64,000 bases of DNA from Blastococcus sp. MG754426 (GTDB taxonomy: Bacteria; Actinomycetota; Actinomycetes; Mycobacteriales; Geodermatophilaceae): assembly GCF_021699055.1 (NCBI RefSeq), contig NZ_SSXC01000002.1, positions 62,001 to 126,000 on the forward strand. The letters run 5' to 3'. This document shows, one piece after another, positions 48,913 to 58,534 of this stretch (position 1 is the first letter of the stretch; every line of letters begins with the position of its first letter). The notes beneath the pieces are model-generated. The model was not told the DNA's origin and ran no database searches. It saw only the letters and a list, made by a program, of their open reading frames with translations. The translations under genes and the position numbers were made by a program.

Positions 48913-50214
48913 TCAGCCGATGAGCCCGGCGGCCCGCACCGACCTGAGGGAGGGCTCCACCCGGTGCGTCGGGCCGACGACGGGCTCGAGCGGGTCGAGG
49001 GTCTTCAGCCCCTCCCCCGTGTTGAGGACGACGGTCTCCTTCGCCGGGTCGAGCCGCCCGCTCTCGACCAGCGTGCGGAGCACCGCGACGGTCACCCCGC
49101 CGGCGGTCTCGGCGAAGATGCCGGTGGTGCGGGCCAGGTCGCGGATGCCCTGGACGATCTCGTCGTCGCCCACCCGCGCGACCGCGCCGCCGGTGCGCCG
49201 GATCGCGTCGAGCGCGTAGGGGCCGTCGGCGGGGTTGCCGATGTTGAGCGACTTCGCGATCCCGGTGGGCTTCACCGGCTTGACGACGTCCCAGCCGTTG
49301 TCGAACGCGGTGGCGATCGGGTCGCAGCCGGCCGACTGCGCGCCGAAGATCGTCCACTCGGTGGCCTCGACGATGCCGGCCGCCGCCAGCTCGCGGAACG
49401 CCTTGTCCACCTTGGTGAGCAGCGAGCCGGAGGCCATCGGGATGACCACCTGGGCCGGGATGCGCCAGCCCAGCTGCTCGGCGATCTCGTAACCCATCGT
49501 CTTGGAGCCCTCGGCGTAGTAGGGCCGGACGTTCTGGTTGACGAAGGCGGTGTCCTCGAACTCGTCGGTCTCGCCGAGCTCGCTGGTCAGCCGGTTGACG
49601 TCGTCGTAGGAGCCGTCGACGGCGACCAGCGTCTGCCCGTAGACCGCCGACTGCACGACCTTGCCGGGCTCCAGGTCGCTCGGGATGAAGACGAACGAGG
49701 GCAGGCCGACGCGGGCGGCGTGCGCGGCCACGGAGTTGGCCAGGTTGCCGGTGGAGGCGGCGGCGATCTTCTTGTAGCCAAGGCCCTTGGCGGCGGTCGC
49801 GGCGAGGCTGACGACGCGGTCCTTGAAGGAGTGGGTGGGGTTGGCCGAGTCGTCCTTGACCCAGAGCCCGCCGGTGAGGCCGAGCTCGGCGGCGAGGCGG
49901 TCGGCGCGAACCAGCGGGGTCATCCCCGGGTCGAGCGAGACGCGGTCGGCCGGGTCCTGGCCCACGGGCAGCAGGGCCACGTACCGCCAGATGTTCTGCG
50001 GGCCGGCCTCGATCTGCTCGCGGGTGACGGCCTTCATCAGCTCGGGGTCGTAGTCGACCTCCAGCGGGCCGAAGCACTCGGCGCAGGCGTGCTGGGCGAT
50101 GAGCCCGAACGTGGCGCCGCAGTTGCGGCAGACCAGCCCGCGCGCGGGACAGGGGGGCACCGGGCCGCCGGCAGCGGAGTCGGCCTGGAGCGATCCGGGA
50201 GCGGTGAGGGTCAT
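48913..50214 (-). CDS. thrC: Threonine synthase
   Basis: Pyridoxal-phosphate enzyme converting O-phosphohomoserine to threonine and phosphate. The 433-residue protein has an N-terminal zinc-ribbon-like motif, CRNC and CAEC (Cys29, 32, 44, 47). The cofactor lysine Lys131 lies in NPTHSFKDR, with AASTGNLANSVAAHAARVG for phosphate binding and NTGEGLKTLDPLEPV near the C-terminus. It is the ThrC type common in plants and Actinobacteria. A class-I SAM riboswitch covers its leader, so translation should fall when SAM is plentiful. Start ATG with AGGAGG upstream. Confidence 0.95.
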   Translation of the reverse strand: MTLTAPGSLQADSAAGGPVPPCPARGLVCRNCGATFGLIAQHACAECFGPLEVDYDPELMKAVTREQIEAGPQNIWRYVALLPVGQDPADRVSLDPGMTPLVRADRLAAELGLTGGLWVKDDSANPTHSFKDRVVSLAATAAKGLGYKKIAAASTGNLANSVAAHAARVGLPSFVFIPSDLEPGKVVQSAVYGQTLVAVDGSYDDVNRLTSELGETDEFEDTAFVNQNVRPYYAEGSKTMGYEIAEQLGWRIPAQVVIPMASGSLLTKVDKAFRELAAAGIVEATEWTIFGAQSAGCDPIATAFDNGWDVVKPVKPTGIAKSLNIGNPADGPYALDAIRRTGGAVARVGDDEIVQGIRDLARTTGIFAETAGGVTVAVLRTLVESGRLDPAKETVVLNTGEGLKTLDPLEPVVGPTHRVEPSLRSVRAAGLIG

Positions 50215-50228
50215 GCGACGACTACCTC

Positions 50229-50359
50229 CTCATCTTCCCCGCTGCGGGCCGTCGAGCCGCGCGGGACGGAATTGGCACCTCCCGCCCGTCGCGCGGAGCG
50301 CGGCAGGCGGCGGTTGCCGGGGCTTCGTCGGGCCGTGTCCCTCTGCCCCTCTGGATGAG
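50229..50359 (-). ncRNA. SAM-I (S-box) riboswitch controlling thrC
   Basis: On the minus strand: the P1 5' strand CTCATCC, then CAGAGGGGCAGAGGGAC, GGCCCGACGAAGCCC, CGGCAACC and GGTGCCAATTCC, all S-box core motifs in order. The P1 3' strand GATGAG closes at 50234-50229. It runs straight into GAGG of the ribosome site, and the ATG follows 14 bases later, which points to translational control by hiding the ribosome site. Confidence 0.95.
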
Positions 50360-50407
50360 TGAACGGGGTGGACTCTACCCAGTCGCGGCGCGCGCCCGGC
50401 GGCGGGA

Positions 50408-51419: not shown

Positions 51420-52298
51420 CTACGACGTGACGTCGCGGCGGGCGAAGTGGCGGAAGCCCAGGGCGGTGAAGACGGCGGCGTAGACCAGCGCCTGCACCAC
51501 CCCGCGGAACAGGTCCCCGGAGTCCACCGGCGTCTGCAGCAGGTCGGTCCACGCGTAGGCCTCCGCGAGCGGGAACCAGTCGCGGATCGCGCCGAGCTGC
51601 TCCACCTCGTCGAGGATCGCGAAGACGACGACGGTGAACACGGCGCCACCGACGGCGGCCAGGGGCGCGTCGGTGATCGTGGAGAACCAGAAGGCCAGCG
51701 CGCCGACGGTGAGCAGGTGCACCGCCAGGTAGCCCAGCATGCCGGCCAGCCGCAGCATGCCCTCGCCCTGGTCGATGCCGACGCCGACCGGTGTGGTGAT
51801 GTCGCCGAAGCCGAACGCGATGCCCCCGGCCACCACCGAGACCACCGCGAGCGTCAGCAGCGCGCCGACCGCCTGCACGAACGCGGCGAGCCACTTCTGC
51901 CGGAGCAGCCGCGCCCTCGGGACCGGGGTGGCCAGCGCGTACCGCAGCGACCCCCACTGCGCCTCGCTGGCGACGGTGTCGCCGAAGACGAGCGCGTAGA
52001 CGACGACGAGGAAGAAGCCCGTGGTCGCGAAGAGCACGAACAGCGTGAAGTTCAGCCCGCTCGCCGTCGCGACGTCGACGAGGTTGATCCGCGCGTTCTC
52101 CGCGGCCTCCTCGTCGGCCCCCAGCTGCAGGGCGGCGATCAGGACCAGCGGCAGCGCGGCCATCAGCGCGAAGACGCCCAGGGTGCGCCGGCGCTTGAAC
52201 TGCCGGCGCAGCTCGACCGGGAGCCGCAGGGTCCGCTCCGGCCGGTACCCGGCGACCGCCCCGGTCGGCTGCACGTGCTGCTCGGTGCCCGTCGTCAT
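51420..52298 (-). CDS. ABC-2 permease partner of the hydrolase-ABC fusion
   Basis: A 292-residue membrane protein with six predicted helices. The ABC-2 coupling region is ASEAQWGSLRYALATPVPRARLLRQKW, of which GSLRYALATPVPR is diagnostic. A large extracytoplasmic segment (GADEEAAENARINLVDVA) lies between helices 1 and 2. The start is ATG 52298, overlapping the fusion gene stop (ATGA). Co-translation makes it the obvious membrane channel for the ATPase domain of that gene. The direction of transport is probably outward. Confidence 0.9.
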   Translation of the reverse strand: MTTGTEQHVQPTGAVAGYRPERTLRLPVELRRQFKRRRTLGVFALMAALPLVLIAALQLGADEEAAENARINLVDVATASGLNFTLFVLFATTGFFLVVVYALVFGDTVASEAQWGSLRYALATPVPRARLLRQKWLAAFVQAVGALLTLAVVSVVAGGIAFGFGDITTPVGVGIDQGEGMLRLAGMLGYLAVHLLTVGALAFWFSTITDAPLAAVGGAVFTVVVFAILDEVEQLGAIRDWFPLAEAYAWTDLLQTPVDSGDLFRGVVQALVYAAVFTALGFRHFARRDVTS

Positions 52299-55189
52299 GA
52301 CTCCCCCACCAGCGCCAGGAAGGCGTCCTCCAGCCGGCGACGCGGCGTGAACTGCTCCACGGCGACGCCCGCCGAGACCAGCGCCTGCAGCACGTCGGCC
52401 CGCCGCACGCCGTCGAGCTCGGCCACCAGGCCGTCGTCCGTGCGGCCGGCGGTCACGCCGGGCAGGCCCGACAGGACGGCGACCGCCCGGTCGGTGTCGG
52501 CGTCGTCGGCCAGGCCGACCAGCACGGAACCGCCGGCACCGACGATCTCCTCGACGGTGCCCTGGGCGATCTTCTGCCCCTTGGCCATCACGACGACGTG
52601 GCTGCAGGTCTGCTCGATCTCGCTCAGCAGGTGGCTGGAGACGATGACCGTGCGGCCGGTGGCGGCGTAGTTGCGCAGCACCTCGCGCATGGCGTGGATC
52701 TGCGGCGGGTCGAGCCCGTTGGTCGGCTCGTCGAGCACCAGGAGGTCGGGCAGGCCGAGCATCGCCTGGGCGATCGCGACCCGCTGGCGCATGCCCTGGC
52801 TGTACCGGCGCACCGGCCGGTCGATCGCCGCGCCGAGGCCGGCGACCTCGATCGCCTCCTCCATGTGCGCGTCCTCGGCCGGGCGGCCGGTGGCGGCCCA
52901 GTAGAGCGTCAGGTTGTCCCGGCCGGAGAGGTGCGGTTGCAGGCCGGTGCCCTCCACGAACGAGCCCAGCCGGGACAGCACCGGGGCACCGGGGCCGGCG
53001 GCGTGCCCGAAGATGCTGATCCGGCCGTCGGTGGGCCGGATCAACCCCATGAGCATGCGCAACGACGTCGTCTTCCCGGCCCCGTTGGGCCCGAGCAGGC
53101 CGAGCACCTGGCCGCGCCGCACCTCGAAGGAGAGGTCGCGGACGGCGACGAAGCCGTCCTTGTACGCCTTGGTCACGCCGGTGAAGCGCAGGGGGACGTC
53201 CTCCCCGTCGGGCTCCACCTGCGAGATCCGCCGGTCGCGGCGCCTGCCCCACCAGCGGGCGGACAGCCAGCCCAGCAGCCCGAGGCCGGCGAGGACGGCC
53301 AGCAGCACCCACCAGCGGGAGGCGCCGGTCGGGGCCTCGCTGCGGCCTTCCACTTCGGGGGCGGCCAGCGTCGCCTCACCCGCGGAGACGCCGTTGGGGG
53401 CGGTGTCCGAGGCCAGCCCGACCGAGTAGACCGCCGCCTCGGCCGGCAGCGCGAAGGCCTGGTCGGTGGAGGAGACCAGCACGCGCATGGTGTGCCCGGT
53501 CTCGAAGCGGTGCACGATGCCCGGCAGCGTGACGCTGACCCGCGTCGGGGCGGTCGGGTCGGTGGAGACGCCGGTGAGCGCGAGCGGCGCCACCAGCCCG
53601 CCGGGCAGCGTGGTCGCGCCGTCCGGGCCGACGTCGTAGAGCTTGGCGAAGAGGGTGGCGCTGCCGCTGGGCGAGGCCACCGCGAGGTCGATCGTCGAGG
53701 CGCCGACGACCTCGACCGGGGCCTCCAGCGGGGCGCTGTCGAACGCGGCGAACTGGCCGGGGATCTCCGCGGTGCTGCCGCCGAGCGCGGAGGTCAGCGC
53801 CCCGAGCCCGGGCAGCGTGGTGAGCGCGGCGGGCGTGCCACCGGCGGGGGTGACGACGGGCTGGACGGGGCCGGAGACGGTCACCGCCCGGCGGGTGGCC
53901 GGCTCGGCGCCGTCCAGCCCGGGGTAGACCTCGGCCGCGACGGCCCGGCCGCCGCCCTGGACCCGCCCGACCGTGGTGCCCAGGCCGGTGGGGGCGGGGA
54001 ACTCGAACCCCGTGCCGGGGTCCTCGCCCTGCCCCCGCAGGTGCCAGTCGAACCAGCCGGCGACGTGGTCGCGCAGGTCCTGCACCTGCCCGTCCGACGA
54101 CGAGGCGTCGTGGCCGCCGGCGAACCAGACCACCTTGACCGGGGTCCCGTCCGCGGCGATCCCCCGCGCGTTCGCGTCGGCCTGGCCCAGCCCGAACAGC
54201 GAGTCCTGGGTGCCCTGCACCAGCAGCGTCGGCACGTCGATCCGGTCGAGGACGCCGGCCGGGCTGCTGCGGTCGAGCACCGCGGCGACCTCCGGCGTCA
54301 GCGTGCCGGTGGAGGCGGCCGCCTGGTAGGCCTCGCACACCTCGAGGCGGAAGCGGCCGCAGGTGAGCAGCAGCTCGGCGGCCTCCGGGTCCGCGGCGGC
54401 CTGCTCGAGCAGCCGCTCGGGCAGGCCGGCGGGCAGCGCGCCACCGCCGGCCCCACCGGCCCCGCCGCCGAGGGCGTCCAGCAGGCCGCCCGAGGCCGAG
54501 CCGATCCCGAAGAACAGCCCGGACCACAGCTGCTTGTAGACGCCGGCCGCCTCCGTCTGCGGCACCGCGGCGACCGTGTCCGCGACGAGGTCGCCGGTCT
54601 GGGACGGGAAGAGCGACGCGGTCAGCGAGTGCCAGGTGATCTGCGGCGCGATGGCGTCGACCCGCTCGTCGTAGGCCGCGCCGAGCAGGGCGAGCGCCCC
54701 GCCGTACGAGCCGCCGGCCACCCCCACCCGCGGGTCGCCCTCGGCGTCGAGCTCGACCTCCTCGCGCTCGGCCAGCAGGTCGAGCAGCGTGGAGAGATCG
54801 GCGATCTCGTAGCGCGGGTCGTTGAGCCCGATCCGCCCGGTGCTCTCCCCGAAGCCGCGGGCCGAGTAGGTGAGGACGACGTACCCGCGGTCGGCCAGGT
54901 CCGCCGCGTCGTCGGCGACCGAGCGCTTGCTGCCGCCGAAGCCGTGCGCGAGCACCACCGCCGGCGCGGGCTCGTCGGTGCCGGGCAGGTACAGGGTGGT
55001 GTCGAGCTCGACGGCGTCCTCGCCGGAGCCCGAGGGCACCCGGGCCTCCTCCGTGCGCACCTCGGCGGCGCCCGCCGGGGGCGCGAGCGCGAGCAGGCCG
55101 GCCGGCAGGGCGAGGGCGAGCAGGGCGGCGGCCGCGGCGCGCGCACCGGGGCGCGGGCGGGGACGCACGAGCCCGCGGAGGGAACGCAC
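52295..55189 (-). CDS. S15-like hydrolase fused through the membrane to an ABC ATPase
   Basis: A 964-residue single chain. A signal/anchor sequence covers residues 1-42. The alpha/beta hydrolase of the CocE/X-Pro peptidase class has AHGFGGSKRS, the nucleophile Ser161 in GGSYGG, Asp329 in GTQDS and His360 in GGHDAS. A beta-sandwich (about 405-600) like the PepX C-terminal domain follows, then a transmembrane helix at about 626-643 and basic stop-transfer residues WWGRRRDRR. The cytoplasmic ABC ATPase (about 666-964) has Walker A GPNGAGKTT (700-708), signature YSQGM, Walker B LLVLDEPTNGLDP and H-loop SSH. All catalytic residues are intact. It couples an outside hydrolase to a transporter whose permease overlaps downstream. 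Confidence 0.9.
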   Translation of the reverse strand: MRSLRGLVRPRPRPGARAAAAALLALALPAGLLALAPPAGAAEVRTEEARVPSGSGEDAVELDTTLYLPGTDEPAPAVVLAHGFGGSKRSVADDAADLADRGYVVLTYSARGFGESTGRIGLNDPRYEIADLSTLLDLLAEREEVELDAEGDPRVGVAGGSYGGALALLGAAYDERVDAIAPQITWHSLTASLFPSQTGDLVADTVAAVPQTEAAGVYKQLWSGLFFGIGSASGGLLDALGGGAGGAGGGALPAGLPERLLEQAAADPEAAELLLTCGRFRLEVCEAYQAAASTGTLTPEVAAVLDRSSPAGVLDRIDVPTLLVQGTQDSLFGLGQADANARGIAADGTPVKVVWFAGGHDASSSDGQVQDLRDHVAGWFDWHLRGQGEDPGTGFEFPAPTGLGTTVGRVQGGGRAVAAEVYPGLDGAEPATRRAVTVSGPVQPVVTPAGGTPAALTTLPGLGALTSALGGSTAEIPGQFAAFDSAPLEAPVEVVGASTIDLAVASPSGSATLFAKLYDVGPDGATTLPGGLVAPLALTGVSTDPTAPTRVSVTLPGIVHRFETGHTMRVLVSSTDQAFALPAEAAVYSVGLASDTAPNGVSAGEATLAAPEVEGRSEAPTGASRWWVLLAVLAGLGLLGWLSARWWGRRRDRRISQVEPDGEDVPLRFTGVTKAYKDGFVAVRDLSFEVRRGQVLGLLGPNGAGKTTSLRMLMGLIRPTDGRISIFGHAAGPGAPVLSRLGSFVEGTGLQPHLSGRDNLTLYWAATGRPAEDAHMEEAIEVAGLGAAIDRPVRRYSQGMRQRVAIAQAMLGLPDLLVLDEPTNGLDPPQIHAMREVLRNYAATGRTVIVSSHLLSEIEQTCSHVVVMAKGQKIAQGTVEEIVGAGGSVLVGLADDADTDRAVAVLSGLPGVTAGRTDDGLVAELDGVRRADVLQALVSAGVAVEQFTPRRRLEDAFLALVGES

Positions 55190-55245: not shown

Positions 55246-56622
55246 TCAGGGCTGCCAGTTGCCCGTGGCGACGATGACCAGCCCCGGCGCCGGGACGTCG
55301 GCCACCTCGAAGAAGCGCGGCGCGGGGCCGGCGAGCTCGGGGAACTGCTCGATCAGCTGCAGCGCCGCCTGGCGCTGCTGCTCGTCGCCCTCGGTGAAGT
55401 ACACGGTCGTCGCCGAGACGTCGGTGCCCGGGTAGGCGCCGACACCGGGCGACTCCCAGCCACCGGCGACGACGGCGCCGGAGATCTTGGCGGCGAGGCC
55501 GGTGATTCTCGTGGCGTTGAGGACGGTGACCGGGACCCGCACCGGGGTGGTGATCGCCGGCTCGACGACCACGGGGCTCTCCGGCAGCGGCGGGAGGGCG
55601 GCGGTCGGGACGGCGACGGTCGGGACGCTGGCGGGAGCGGGCGCGGCCGCGGCGGCCTCCTCCTTCTCCGGCGCGGTGACCGTGTAGACACCGAGGACCG
55701 CGCCGGCGACGACGGCCATGGCGACCAGACCCTTGAGCACGCGGCGCGGCTTGCGCTCGGGCTCGTCGTCGAAGAGCACCTCGGGGGTGCCGTTGCGCCT
55801 GGCCGCCTTGCGGCGCGCGGCGTCGGCAGCCTGCCGCTCGGCGCGGTAGGCGGCGCGGCCGCCCTTGACCTCCGCCCCGCCCGGCGCGGGAGCCGCCACC
55901 TCGGCGTCGAGGTCGTAGCCGTCGTCGTCGTGGCCGTCGTCGTCGTGGCCGTCGTGGCCGAGGTCGTCGTCGGAGGCGGCGTCGGCCCGCCGCGCGCTGA
56001 TGTCCCGCTCGGGGATCGCCGTCGTGGCCGGCGACTCGAGGACCGCCGGCGCGAGCCGCGAGCGGCCGGTGTCGTCGGTGCGCGAGGGCTTGGTCCAGTC
56101 GCCGTAGGAGGACGACGGCGCGCCGGACGGGGTGGTCTGCCGGGGCACGCGGGGGACGCGCGGCACGGGGGCGCTGCGGCCCGACCCACGGGTCGGGCCC
56201 GTGGTGGCCAGCGGCTCGTCGTCGACCAGCAGCGCCGTCGGGCCCGCGGGAGAAGCGGCCGGTGCCGGGGCGGGCGAGGGCACCGCGCGGAACGGGGCGG
56301 CGCTGGTCTGCGGGCCCGGGACGCCCGCGGCGCGGGGGGTGACCGGCGCGGGACCGGCGGCGGCACGCGCGGCGGCCGGCACGGGCGGCAGCGGCAGCCG
56401 GGAGCGGGAGACCTGGTGCCCCGCCTCGCCGGGAGCACCGGCCACGACGTCGCGCCGGGGGCCGCGGCGATCGCGCCCGGGGGCAGTGGGGTGGTCGCTC
56501 AGGCCGGCACCGGGGAGGGAGCCGTCCGGGGCGTCGGTGCGGCGCCGCCCGGCGGGCGGCGACACGTGCCCCTGCGCCACTCCGTCACTGCCTGACGCCG
56601 CGTGCCTGCCCACGGTGAGCAA
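55246..56622 (-). CDS. LytR C-terminal domain (LytR_C) membrane protein
   Basis: A 458-residue protein. A long disordered Pro/Ala/Arg-rich cytoplasmic segment contains an acidic GHDDDGHDDDGYD repeat. A basic patch follows, then one transmembrane helix (RRVLKGLVAMAVVAGAVLGV, about residue 315) and an outer LytR_C domain with VTVLNATRITGLAAKISGAV and TVYFTEGDEQQRQAAL. Probably a cell-wall-associated protein related to the envelope LCP system, but it lacks the catalytic LCP domain. The start is uncertain: TTG 56622 is two bases after the DUF3263 stop, and GTG 56613 is also possible. Confidence 0.82.
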   Translation of the reverse strand: MLTVGRHAASGSDGVAQGHVSPPAGRRRTDAPDGSLPGAGLSDHPTAPGRDRRGPRRDVVAGAPGEAGHQVSRSRLPLPPVPAAARAAAGPAPVTPRAAGVPGPQTSAAPFRAVPSPAPAPAASPAGPTALLVDDEPLATTGPTRGSGRSAPVPRVPRVPRQTTPSGAPSSSYGDWTKPSRTDDTGRSRLAPAVLESPATTAIPERDISARRADAASDDDLGHDGHDDDGHDDDGYDLDAEVAAPAPGGAEVKGGRAAYRAERQAADAARRKAARRNGTPEVLFDDEPERKPRRVLKGLVAMAVVAGAVLGVYTVTAPEKEEAAAAAPAPASVPTVAVPTAALPPLPESPVVVEPAITTPVRVPVTVLNATRITGLAAKISGAVVAGGWESPGVGAYPGTDVSATTVYFTEGDEQQRQAALQLIEQFPELAGPAPRFFEVADVPAPGLVIVATGNWQP

Positions 56623-56624
56623 AT

Positions 56625-56963
56625 CTAATCCATGTCATTCCCGTTGCCCAGGATCTGCGGCGAGCGCGTCCGACGCCGCGCCGTCCGCAGCCGGCGCAGG
56701 CGCCGGACCAGGAGCGGGTCGGCCGCCAGCGCCTCCGGCCGGTCGACCAGGGCGTTGAGCGCCTGGTAGTACCGGGTCGGCGTCGTGTCGAACAGGTCGC
56801 GGATCGCCGTCTCCTTGGCCCCGGCGCGCCGCCACCACTGGCGCTCGAAACCGAGCATCTCGTGCTCCCGCCGCGACAGGCCGGCGGCGCCGGCCGGCAC
56901 GGGCCTGTCCCCTGACCCGTCGACCCGGGGCGGGGAGACCACGGGGGCTGGGTCGCTGTGCAT
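56625..56963 (-). CDS. DUF3263 protein
   Basis: A 112-residue actinobacterial protein. The DUF3263 core is LSRREHEMLGFERQWWRRAGAKE (with EHEMLGFERQWWRRAG as the core) then IRDLFDTTPTRYYQALNALVDRP and ADPLLVRRLRRLR. The helical arrangement with a conserved TRYYQALN segment resembles a DNA-binding domain, but this is pattern-level only. The start is ATG 56963, with GGAG about ten bases upstream. It is next to the LytR_C gene on the same strand, two bases apart, so they are co-expressed. This pairing is seen in several Actinobacteria. Confidence 0.9.
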   Translation of the reverse strand: MHSDPAPVVSPPRVDGSGDRPVPAGAAGLSRREHEMLGFERQWWRRAGAKETAIRDLFDTTPTRYYQALNALVDRPEALAADPLLVRRLRRLRTARRRTRSPQILGNGNDMD

Positions 56964-57081
56964 CGTCGGACCATCTCCTGAGCTGCTCCGCCGGCCGGGC
57001 GCTCCCGGCGGCTCGGGCACGACGGTAGCGCCGTCCACCGACGTTCCCGGCCCACGCGCCGCGGCGGACCCGGCAGCGCCG

Positions 57082-58063: not shown

Positions 58064-58462
58064 GTGAGCTCTCAGCGCCCCGGCCCCCTGCAGTGGGTCT
58101 GGTACGCGTACGGCGGTGGGTTGCCCCGCGAGCTGGCGCCGTGGGTCCTGGAGGACACCACCCGCAGCACCTGGGTGTGGCGGCAGCTGGCCCGGGCGGT
58201 GGTGCAGCTGCTGCCCCTGATCGTGGTCTGCCTGCTGCTGGTCCCCGTCCCGCTGGCCTACCGGGTCGCCGCGGCCGGCGGCGGGCTGCTGCTCGGCCTG
58301 CTGTTCTCGCTGGCCTACATGGTCGAGACCACCGAGCACCGGGTGGTGAAGGCCGGCTACCCGCCGGGGACGGCGGGGCGCCTGCGCGCGGAGCGGGCCG
58401 AGCGGGCGCGGGTGGAGCGGCTCTCCCCCTACCGGCGCGACGGCGCGGGGAGCTTCGACTGA
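58064..58462 (+). CDS. DUF5313 membrane protein
   Basis: A 132-residue protein. WVWYAYGGGLPRELAPWVLEDTT at the N-terminus (core YAYGGGLPRELAPWV) is the DUF5313 signature. Two transmembrane helices follow at about residues 45-62 and 66-88, then a charged tail ERAERARVERLSPYRRD. Function unknown, restricted to Actinobacteria. Its TGA overlaps the last base of the convergent tRNA-Thr gene by one base. Confidence 0.88.
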   Translation: MSSQRPGPLQWVWYAYGGGLPRELAPWVLEDTTRSTWVWRQLARAVVQLLPLIVVCLLLVPVPLAYRVAAAGGGLLLGLLFSLAYMVETTEHRVVKAGYPPGTAGRLRAERAERARVERLSPYRRDGAGSFD

Positions 58463-58534
58463 GCCGACGAGGGGACTCGAACCCCTAACCGCCCGATTAC
58501 AAGTCGGGTGCGCTACCAGTTGCGCCACGCCGGC
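58462..58534 (-). tRNA. tRNA-Thr (anticodon UGU)
   Basis: A 73-base cloverleaf. The acceptor GCCGGCG pairs with CGTCGGC (one G-U), the D-arm has GCGC stems, and the anticodon stem CCCGA/TCGGG holds loop CTTGTAA, so the anticodon is TGT reading ACA. The T-arm is AGGGG-TTCGAGT-CCCCT with discriminator U73. CCA is not encoded. The 3' end touches the stop codon of the DUF5313 gene on the other strand. Confidence 0.95.

Follow-up and report, generated by a model that had tools for sequence, protein, structure and literature searches.

TagGH of B. subtilis is a type V ABC transporter whose ATPase subunit also includes a transmembrane (TM) helix followed by an extracellular domain (PMC11466899). In M. 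tuberculosis, the lipid esterase/transferase-like protein Rv1215c is encoded with the Rv1218c/Rv1217c pump, and modification of exported lipids has been proposed by its authors (PMC4155686). On the enzyme side, the secreted lipase PaL (Pseudomonas alcaligenes lipase) hydrolyses L-menthyl propionate (PMC9902596); solved PaL and CocE, unlike the protein described here, are fused to neither a membrane helix nor an ATPase.

NosDFY and FtsEX (the latter with wall hydrolases) work mechanically, and NosD of NosDFY is a separate extracytoplasmic protein that is not a hydrolase.

Here, we describe a gene pair from Blastococcus in which a secreted-type hydrolase and an ABC ATPase form one chain, followed by an ABC-2 permease gene; positions refer to the window, the whole 64,000-nucleotide stretch of DNA that was analysed. 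The fusion shares the ATPase–TM helix–extracellular domain link with TagGH/TarGH, the wall teichoic acid exporter, but its order is reversed and its outside part is a hydrolase rather than the SH3b-like binding domain of TagGH. An earlier note on this DNA, which knew of no characterised system of this layout, was therefore too strong on this point. As in the Rv1215c case, an esterase-like protein goes with an ABC pump, and Rv1218c is among the PDB matches of the fusion ATPase; that likeness is drawn from gene pairing, and the M. tuberculosis proteins, unlike the fusion, are encoded by separate genes. NosDFY shares the ATPase fold with its C-terminal domain and a single small permease, although the similarity of our permease to NosY was not significant (E 0.13). 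We found no description of the fusion–permease pair in the open-access literature, which leaves out most subscription papers, and the pair is a real, widespread, and apparently unstudied variant of the type V ABC system.

Architecture of the fusion and permease genes

The fusion gene is a single uninterrupted 964-codon frame on the minus strand, with a GTG start at 55189 and a stop at 52295-52297. The ATG of the 292-codon permease gene overlaps this stop as ATGA (gagtcATGAcg), as had been read from the sequence before, and the permease frame extends down to 51420. The features are as follows.

52295..55189, minus strand: fusion gene encoding signal sequence, S15/CocE/PaL-type hydrolase, jelly roll, TM helix, and ABC ATPase, 964 aa (frame, Pfam, model, 142 homologues)
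55061..55189, minus strand: signal sequence, residues 1-43 (model helix 14-35; hydrophobic core in 137/139 homologues)
54035..55060, minus strand: alpha/beta-hydrolase domain with cap, residues 44-385, with S161, D329, H360 and C277/C285 (Pfam S15, model pLDDT 89)
53330..54034, minus strand: jelly-roll (PepX_C-type) domain, residues 386-620 (Pfam, model, fold match)
53219..53323, minus strand: single TM helix and basic stop-transfer run, about residues 623-657 (model helix 623-654, hydropathy)
52298..53209, minus strand: ABC ATPase and C-terminal accessory domain, residues 661-964 (Pfam, NosF-like fold, motifs)
51420..52298, minus strand: ABC-2 (ABC2_membrane_2) permease, 292 aa (Pfam; adjoins the fusion in 139/142)

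Pfam searches of the fusion detected Peptidase_S15 at residues 58-332 (71.2 bits, cut-off 23), PepX_C at 479-583 (51 bits, cut-off 22.5), and ABC_tran at 684-824 (104 bits, cut-off 25), and the permease matched ABC2_membrane_2 (53.2 bits, cut-off 27.2). In the model of the full fusion, helix 14-35 (signal) was followed by the hydrolase, the jelly roll, helix 623-654, and then directly by the ATPase, which carries Walker A (G703-K706-T707), signature (S797-x-G-M-x-Q), D820-E821, and H853. Frame, Pfam, and model agreed on the single-chain layout of signal sequence, hydrolase, beta-sandwich, TM helix, and ABC ATPase claimed in the earlier note, whose coordinates and residue numbers were right, and we regard this anatomy as close to certain. 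The fusion is single-copy within its own genome. A sigma-70 promoter scan detected none at the locus, a scan that is uninformative at such G+C.

Topology and conservation

The homologue set consisted of 142 distinct in-frame fusions, 140 of which were aligned for the triad counts. The triad proposed earlier (Ser161, Asp329, and His360) was intact and invariant in 140/140 sequences. On the ATPase side, Lys706, Thr707, and Gly703 were present in 142/142 fusions, and 138-141 fusions kept the signature, Walker B, and H-loop. Within the genus, dN/dS was 0.17-0.28 for the hydrolase, 0.18-0.26 for the jelly roll, 0.06-0.12 for the ATPase, and 0.06-0.26 for the permease; every folded domain stayed below 0.3, compared with 0.3-0.6 for the helix region. 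The invariant triad and the low dN/dS argue that the hydrolase, the ATPase, and the permease all work.

The TM segment of the window's fusion is a hydrophobic run with arginines behind it. Its hydropathy was at least 1.6 in 141/142 fusions, and the median net charge flanking the helix among fusion homologues was +4 inside versus 0 outside. The signal sequence, the single helix, and this charge bias support the predicted topology, also put forward in the earlier note, of a hydrolase outside and an ATPase inside. Cys277 and Cys285 were both kept in 138/140 aligned fusions and probably form a disulfide, which would in turn suggest an outside location of the hydrolase. An AxA signal-peptidase motif occurred in 133/139 homologues versus 125 expected by shuffling and was uninformative.

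Distribution and co-inheritance of the pair

The permease gene lay directly downstream on the same strand in 139/142 distinct fusions, and its start codon overlapped the fusion stop in 119 of these 139 pairs; the three fusions without a neighbouring permease were explained by contig ends (two) and by a frame broken inside the ATPase (L062). The domain order and the permease that follows it, which the earlier note had proposed to look for in protein databases, are thus recurrent. PF12679 was found in 36/36 permease homologues. Full-length relatives occurred in most families of the window organism's order (50-96% identity), in 6/7 Streptomyces-like genomes (large genomes of a single genus in the same class), and in further classes of the phylum. 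The 80 named loci comprised 78 fusions, one lone hydrolase, and one locus that ran off its contig; none held the two halves as a split pair. The genera represented were Blastococcus, Geodermatophilus, Klenkia, Pseudonocardia, Actinokineospora, Saccharothrix, Amycolatopsis, Micromonospora, Salinispora, Actinoplanes, Streptomyces, Kitasatospora, Planotetraspora, and others. Frame breaks were isolated and confined to a few draft genomes (L046/G058, L062/G012, and L215/G090). Neither a split frame nor halves that are always separate, the outcomes named beforehand as counting against the fusion, describes this set of one-frame homologues.

When the same 100 genomes were searched for the permease, strong orthologues (E<1e-50) were found only where the fusion occurs. 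Two genomes of the window's genus (G019 and G020) had neither gene, and in G090, an apparent case of a permease without a fusion, the fusion was present with broken frames. Pairwise distances correlated at 0.87-0.93 among the three parts (hydrolase, ATPase, and permease), values that shared species history by itself makes high as well. The pair is a common membrane machine found in many soil actinobacteria; Streptomyces, Micromonospora, and Amycolatopsis are among the genera that carry it. It is easily missed when annotation names the front half only: the RefSeq label of one fusion homologue (L083) reads just 'alpha/beta fold hydrolase'. That homologue lies on a Tsukamurella tyrosinosolvens plasmid (NZ_LR134452.1), where the fusion–permease pair stands beside sulfur-acquisition genes.

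The hydrolase is predicted to prefer ester substrates

The model of the hydrolase and jelly roll (mean pLDDT 89) matched PaL lipase best (Z 32.5, 452 residues, 2.9 A), followed by cocaine esterase (Z 27.5), amino-acid ester hydrolase (26.1), and X-Pro dipeptidyl peptidase (25.6); PaL and CocE share the whole hydrolase and jelly-roll fold with the fusion. PaL was also the best solved sequence in a profile search, with both domains matched (E 4e-40). The S15 and PepX_C scores above cut-off, the triad, and the fold matches at Z 25-32 place the enzyme in the Peptidase S15/CocE-NonD superfamily. The N-terminal domain of PepX (~180 residues) is absent, with only the signal sequence preceding the catalytic domain in the fusion, and the alignment to the X-Pro peptidase 6nff begins at 6nff residue 182 and at the catalytic domain of the model. 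Since PaL is the best match and acts on an ester, and since the PepX front domain is missing, the fusion hydrolase would be expected to favour ester over Xaa-Pro substrates. The S15/CocE identity read from the sequence earlier was therefore upheld by Pfam, triad, and fold, whereas its Xaa-Pro side lost ground, the enzyme being nearer to PaL and the CocE esterases. The residue three past the nucleophile is Gly164, near-invariant among homologues; the corresponding residue in the A. turbidans alpha-amino acid ester hydrolase is presumably an Asp that is part of the carboxylate cluster by which such enzymes bind the alpha-amino group.

Affinities and evolution of the transporter parts

The nearest matches of the ATPase were NosF, TM_1403, ABCA lipid transporters, and Rv1218c, and its best full-length structural matches among ABC proteins included NosF, the NosDFY ATPase (31% identity, C-terminal domain included). 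NCBIfam models of the DrrA type and for gallidermin protection scored 174 bits (cut-off 312) and 165 bits (cut-off 310), respectively, which leaves the ATPase outside both families. With full ATPase motifs and an ABC2_membrane permease, the pair is, as judged from sequence, a type V ABC (ABC-2) system with its own tethered ecto-hydrolase, and transport is predicted. In nine fusions (L040, L042, L043, L059, L060, L083, L116, L127, and L160), the ATPase was shorter or its match ended early; the C-terminal accessory domain has been shortened, has diverged, or has been lost there and may be dispensable.

In the ATPase tree, the fused ATPases came together in a single supported group, separate from the 24 other ABC ATPases taken from the same genomes or from related ones. 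In or beside this group stood L078 and L079, unfused ATPase–permease pairs from other classes that lack the hydrolase and belong to the same ATPase clan, and the long-branched L203. The ATPase tree makes a single fusion event likely; three fusions of another class branched apart in the hydrolase tree, and a single event is therefore short of proven. Most lone secreted hydrolases fell outside the main fusion group. The following TM-anchored hydrolases without an ATPase keep the triad.

L047:3932-5872: TM-anchored ATPase-less hydrolase
L048:148-2052: TM-anchored ATPase-less hydrolase
L049:151-2202: TM-anchored ATPase-less hydrolase
L053:4522-6387: TM-anchored ATPase-less hydrolase

All four nest inside the fusions of the window organism's family, and their genomes, which belong to that family, also carry the fusion. 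These copies appear to be duplicates from which the motor (ATPase and permease) has been lost. A stepwise origin of the fusion from a TM-anchored ATPase-less ancestor was rejected on this nesting, which looks like secondary loss. That these copies keep the triad speaks against catalysis being strictly dependent on ATP and shows that the enzyme can persist without the motor.

A working model and its alternatives

In the reading that we favour, two copies of the fusion would contribute a pair of ATPase domains on the inside and a pair of tethered hydrolases on the outside, and two permease copies would form the membrane channel. ATP use would drive the export, or the extraction from the outer leaflet, of an amphiphile that carries an ester or acyl group. 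As this molecule emerges, the serine hydrolase of CocE/PaL type tethered there would cleave or transfer its acyl group, making its release one-way. We infer the stoichiometry, the direction of transport, the ester/acyl substrate, and the action of the enzyme on the cargo. What supports this reading is the domain order, the single-helix topology signals, the motifs and triad, the permease pairing, the co-inheritance, and the purifying selection, together with the PaL match of the enzyme, the ATPase matches that include ABCA lipid transporters and Rv1218c, and the separate-gene parallel of Rv1215c. Counting against it are the anchored paralogues that keep the triad without an ATPase, the L078 and L079 pairs that lack a hydrolase, and neighbouring genes that point to no cargo. 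Coupled export or extraction and ester processing is, in our estimate, a serious possibility that falls somewhat short of probable. The earlier proposal that the hydrolase processes the transported cargo fits the conserved link and the purifying selection on both catalytic sites, which stop short of proving it; the companion proposal, that one activity gates the other, was weakened by the TM-anchored paralogues that keep the triad without an ATPase and a permease. If enzyme and pump are coupled, hydrolysis outside would be wired covalently to ATP use inside, providing a natural model for ABC-motor control of an enzyme across the membrane, and point mutants in the triad and the Walker motifs, both conserved, could put the coupling to the test.

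By analogy with NosDFY and FtsEX, no cargo might cross at all, the ATP-driven motion of the ABC-2 core instead opening and closing the outside hydrolase. The match of the ATPase to NosF, C-terminal domain included, agrees with this, and the covalent helix of the model could act as a direct lever; however, the permease matches NosY only weakly, the hydrolase resembles active free-standing lipases, and the anchored paralogues without an ATPase domain keep the triad, leaving such mechanical drive unlikely. The further-reaching claim of a new class of energised ecto-enzyme, in which an ABC motor drives or gates an outside esterase via one covalent TM helix while moving no substrate, seems quite improbable. 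Self-protection, in which the transporter would clear the outer leaflet of membrane-active antibiotics (esters or lactones) and the tethered hydrolase would destroy them, would suit the occurrence of the fusion in antibiotic-rich genera and the good scores with drug-resistance and lantibiotic models, but those scores lie below the curated cut-offs and the gene is single-copy, with stable surroundings that include thrC and DUF3263, and lies outside resistance islands; we consider it improbable. There is likewise little likelihood that the transporter merely anchors the hydrolase through an accident of fusion, with both acting independently: ATPase-less homologues, both secreted and TM-anchored, do exist, but the fusion persists over several classes with no split halves among the named loci. 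An artefact of assembly or reading frame that merely made two genes look like one was rejected as having virtually no chance of being right, because the same frame, which high G+C (~76%) might produce by chance, recurs in 142 distinct sequences with conserved residues on both sides and synonymous-biased divergence (dN/dS).

Genomic neighbourhood

Clustering of neighbouring genes revealed no dedicated third partner, only housekeeping synteny (thrC, DUF3263, LytR_C, uvrB, and TerC), and the surroundings of the fusion–permease genes showed neither a biosynthetic cluster nor any other dedicated partner, so the neighbourhood points to no cargo. DUF3263 recurred in 21/91 long loci and thrC in 24, and the pair therefore occupies a part of the chromosome that is old and stable. 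Genes for a LytR_C-domain envelope protein and DUF3263 (55246-57038, minus strand) lie immediately upstream of the fusion in the same orientation, an order that we take to be that of Rv0430-Rv0431 (VirR) in M. tuberculosis; a cell-envelope link of the fusion through these neighbours is possible. Three further features were noted in the window.

48913-50214, minus strand: threonine synthase-like gene, with a SAM riboswitch directly upstream
50227-50361, minus strand: the SAM (S-box) riboswitch of this gene (60.5 bits, cut-off 44.4)
58461-58534, minus strand: tRNA-Thr (TGT)
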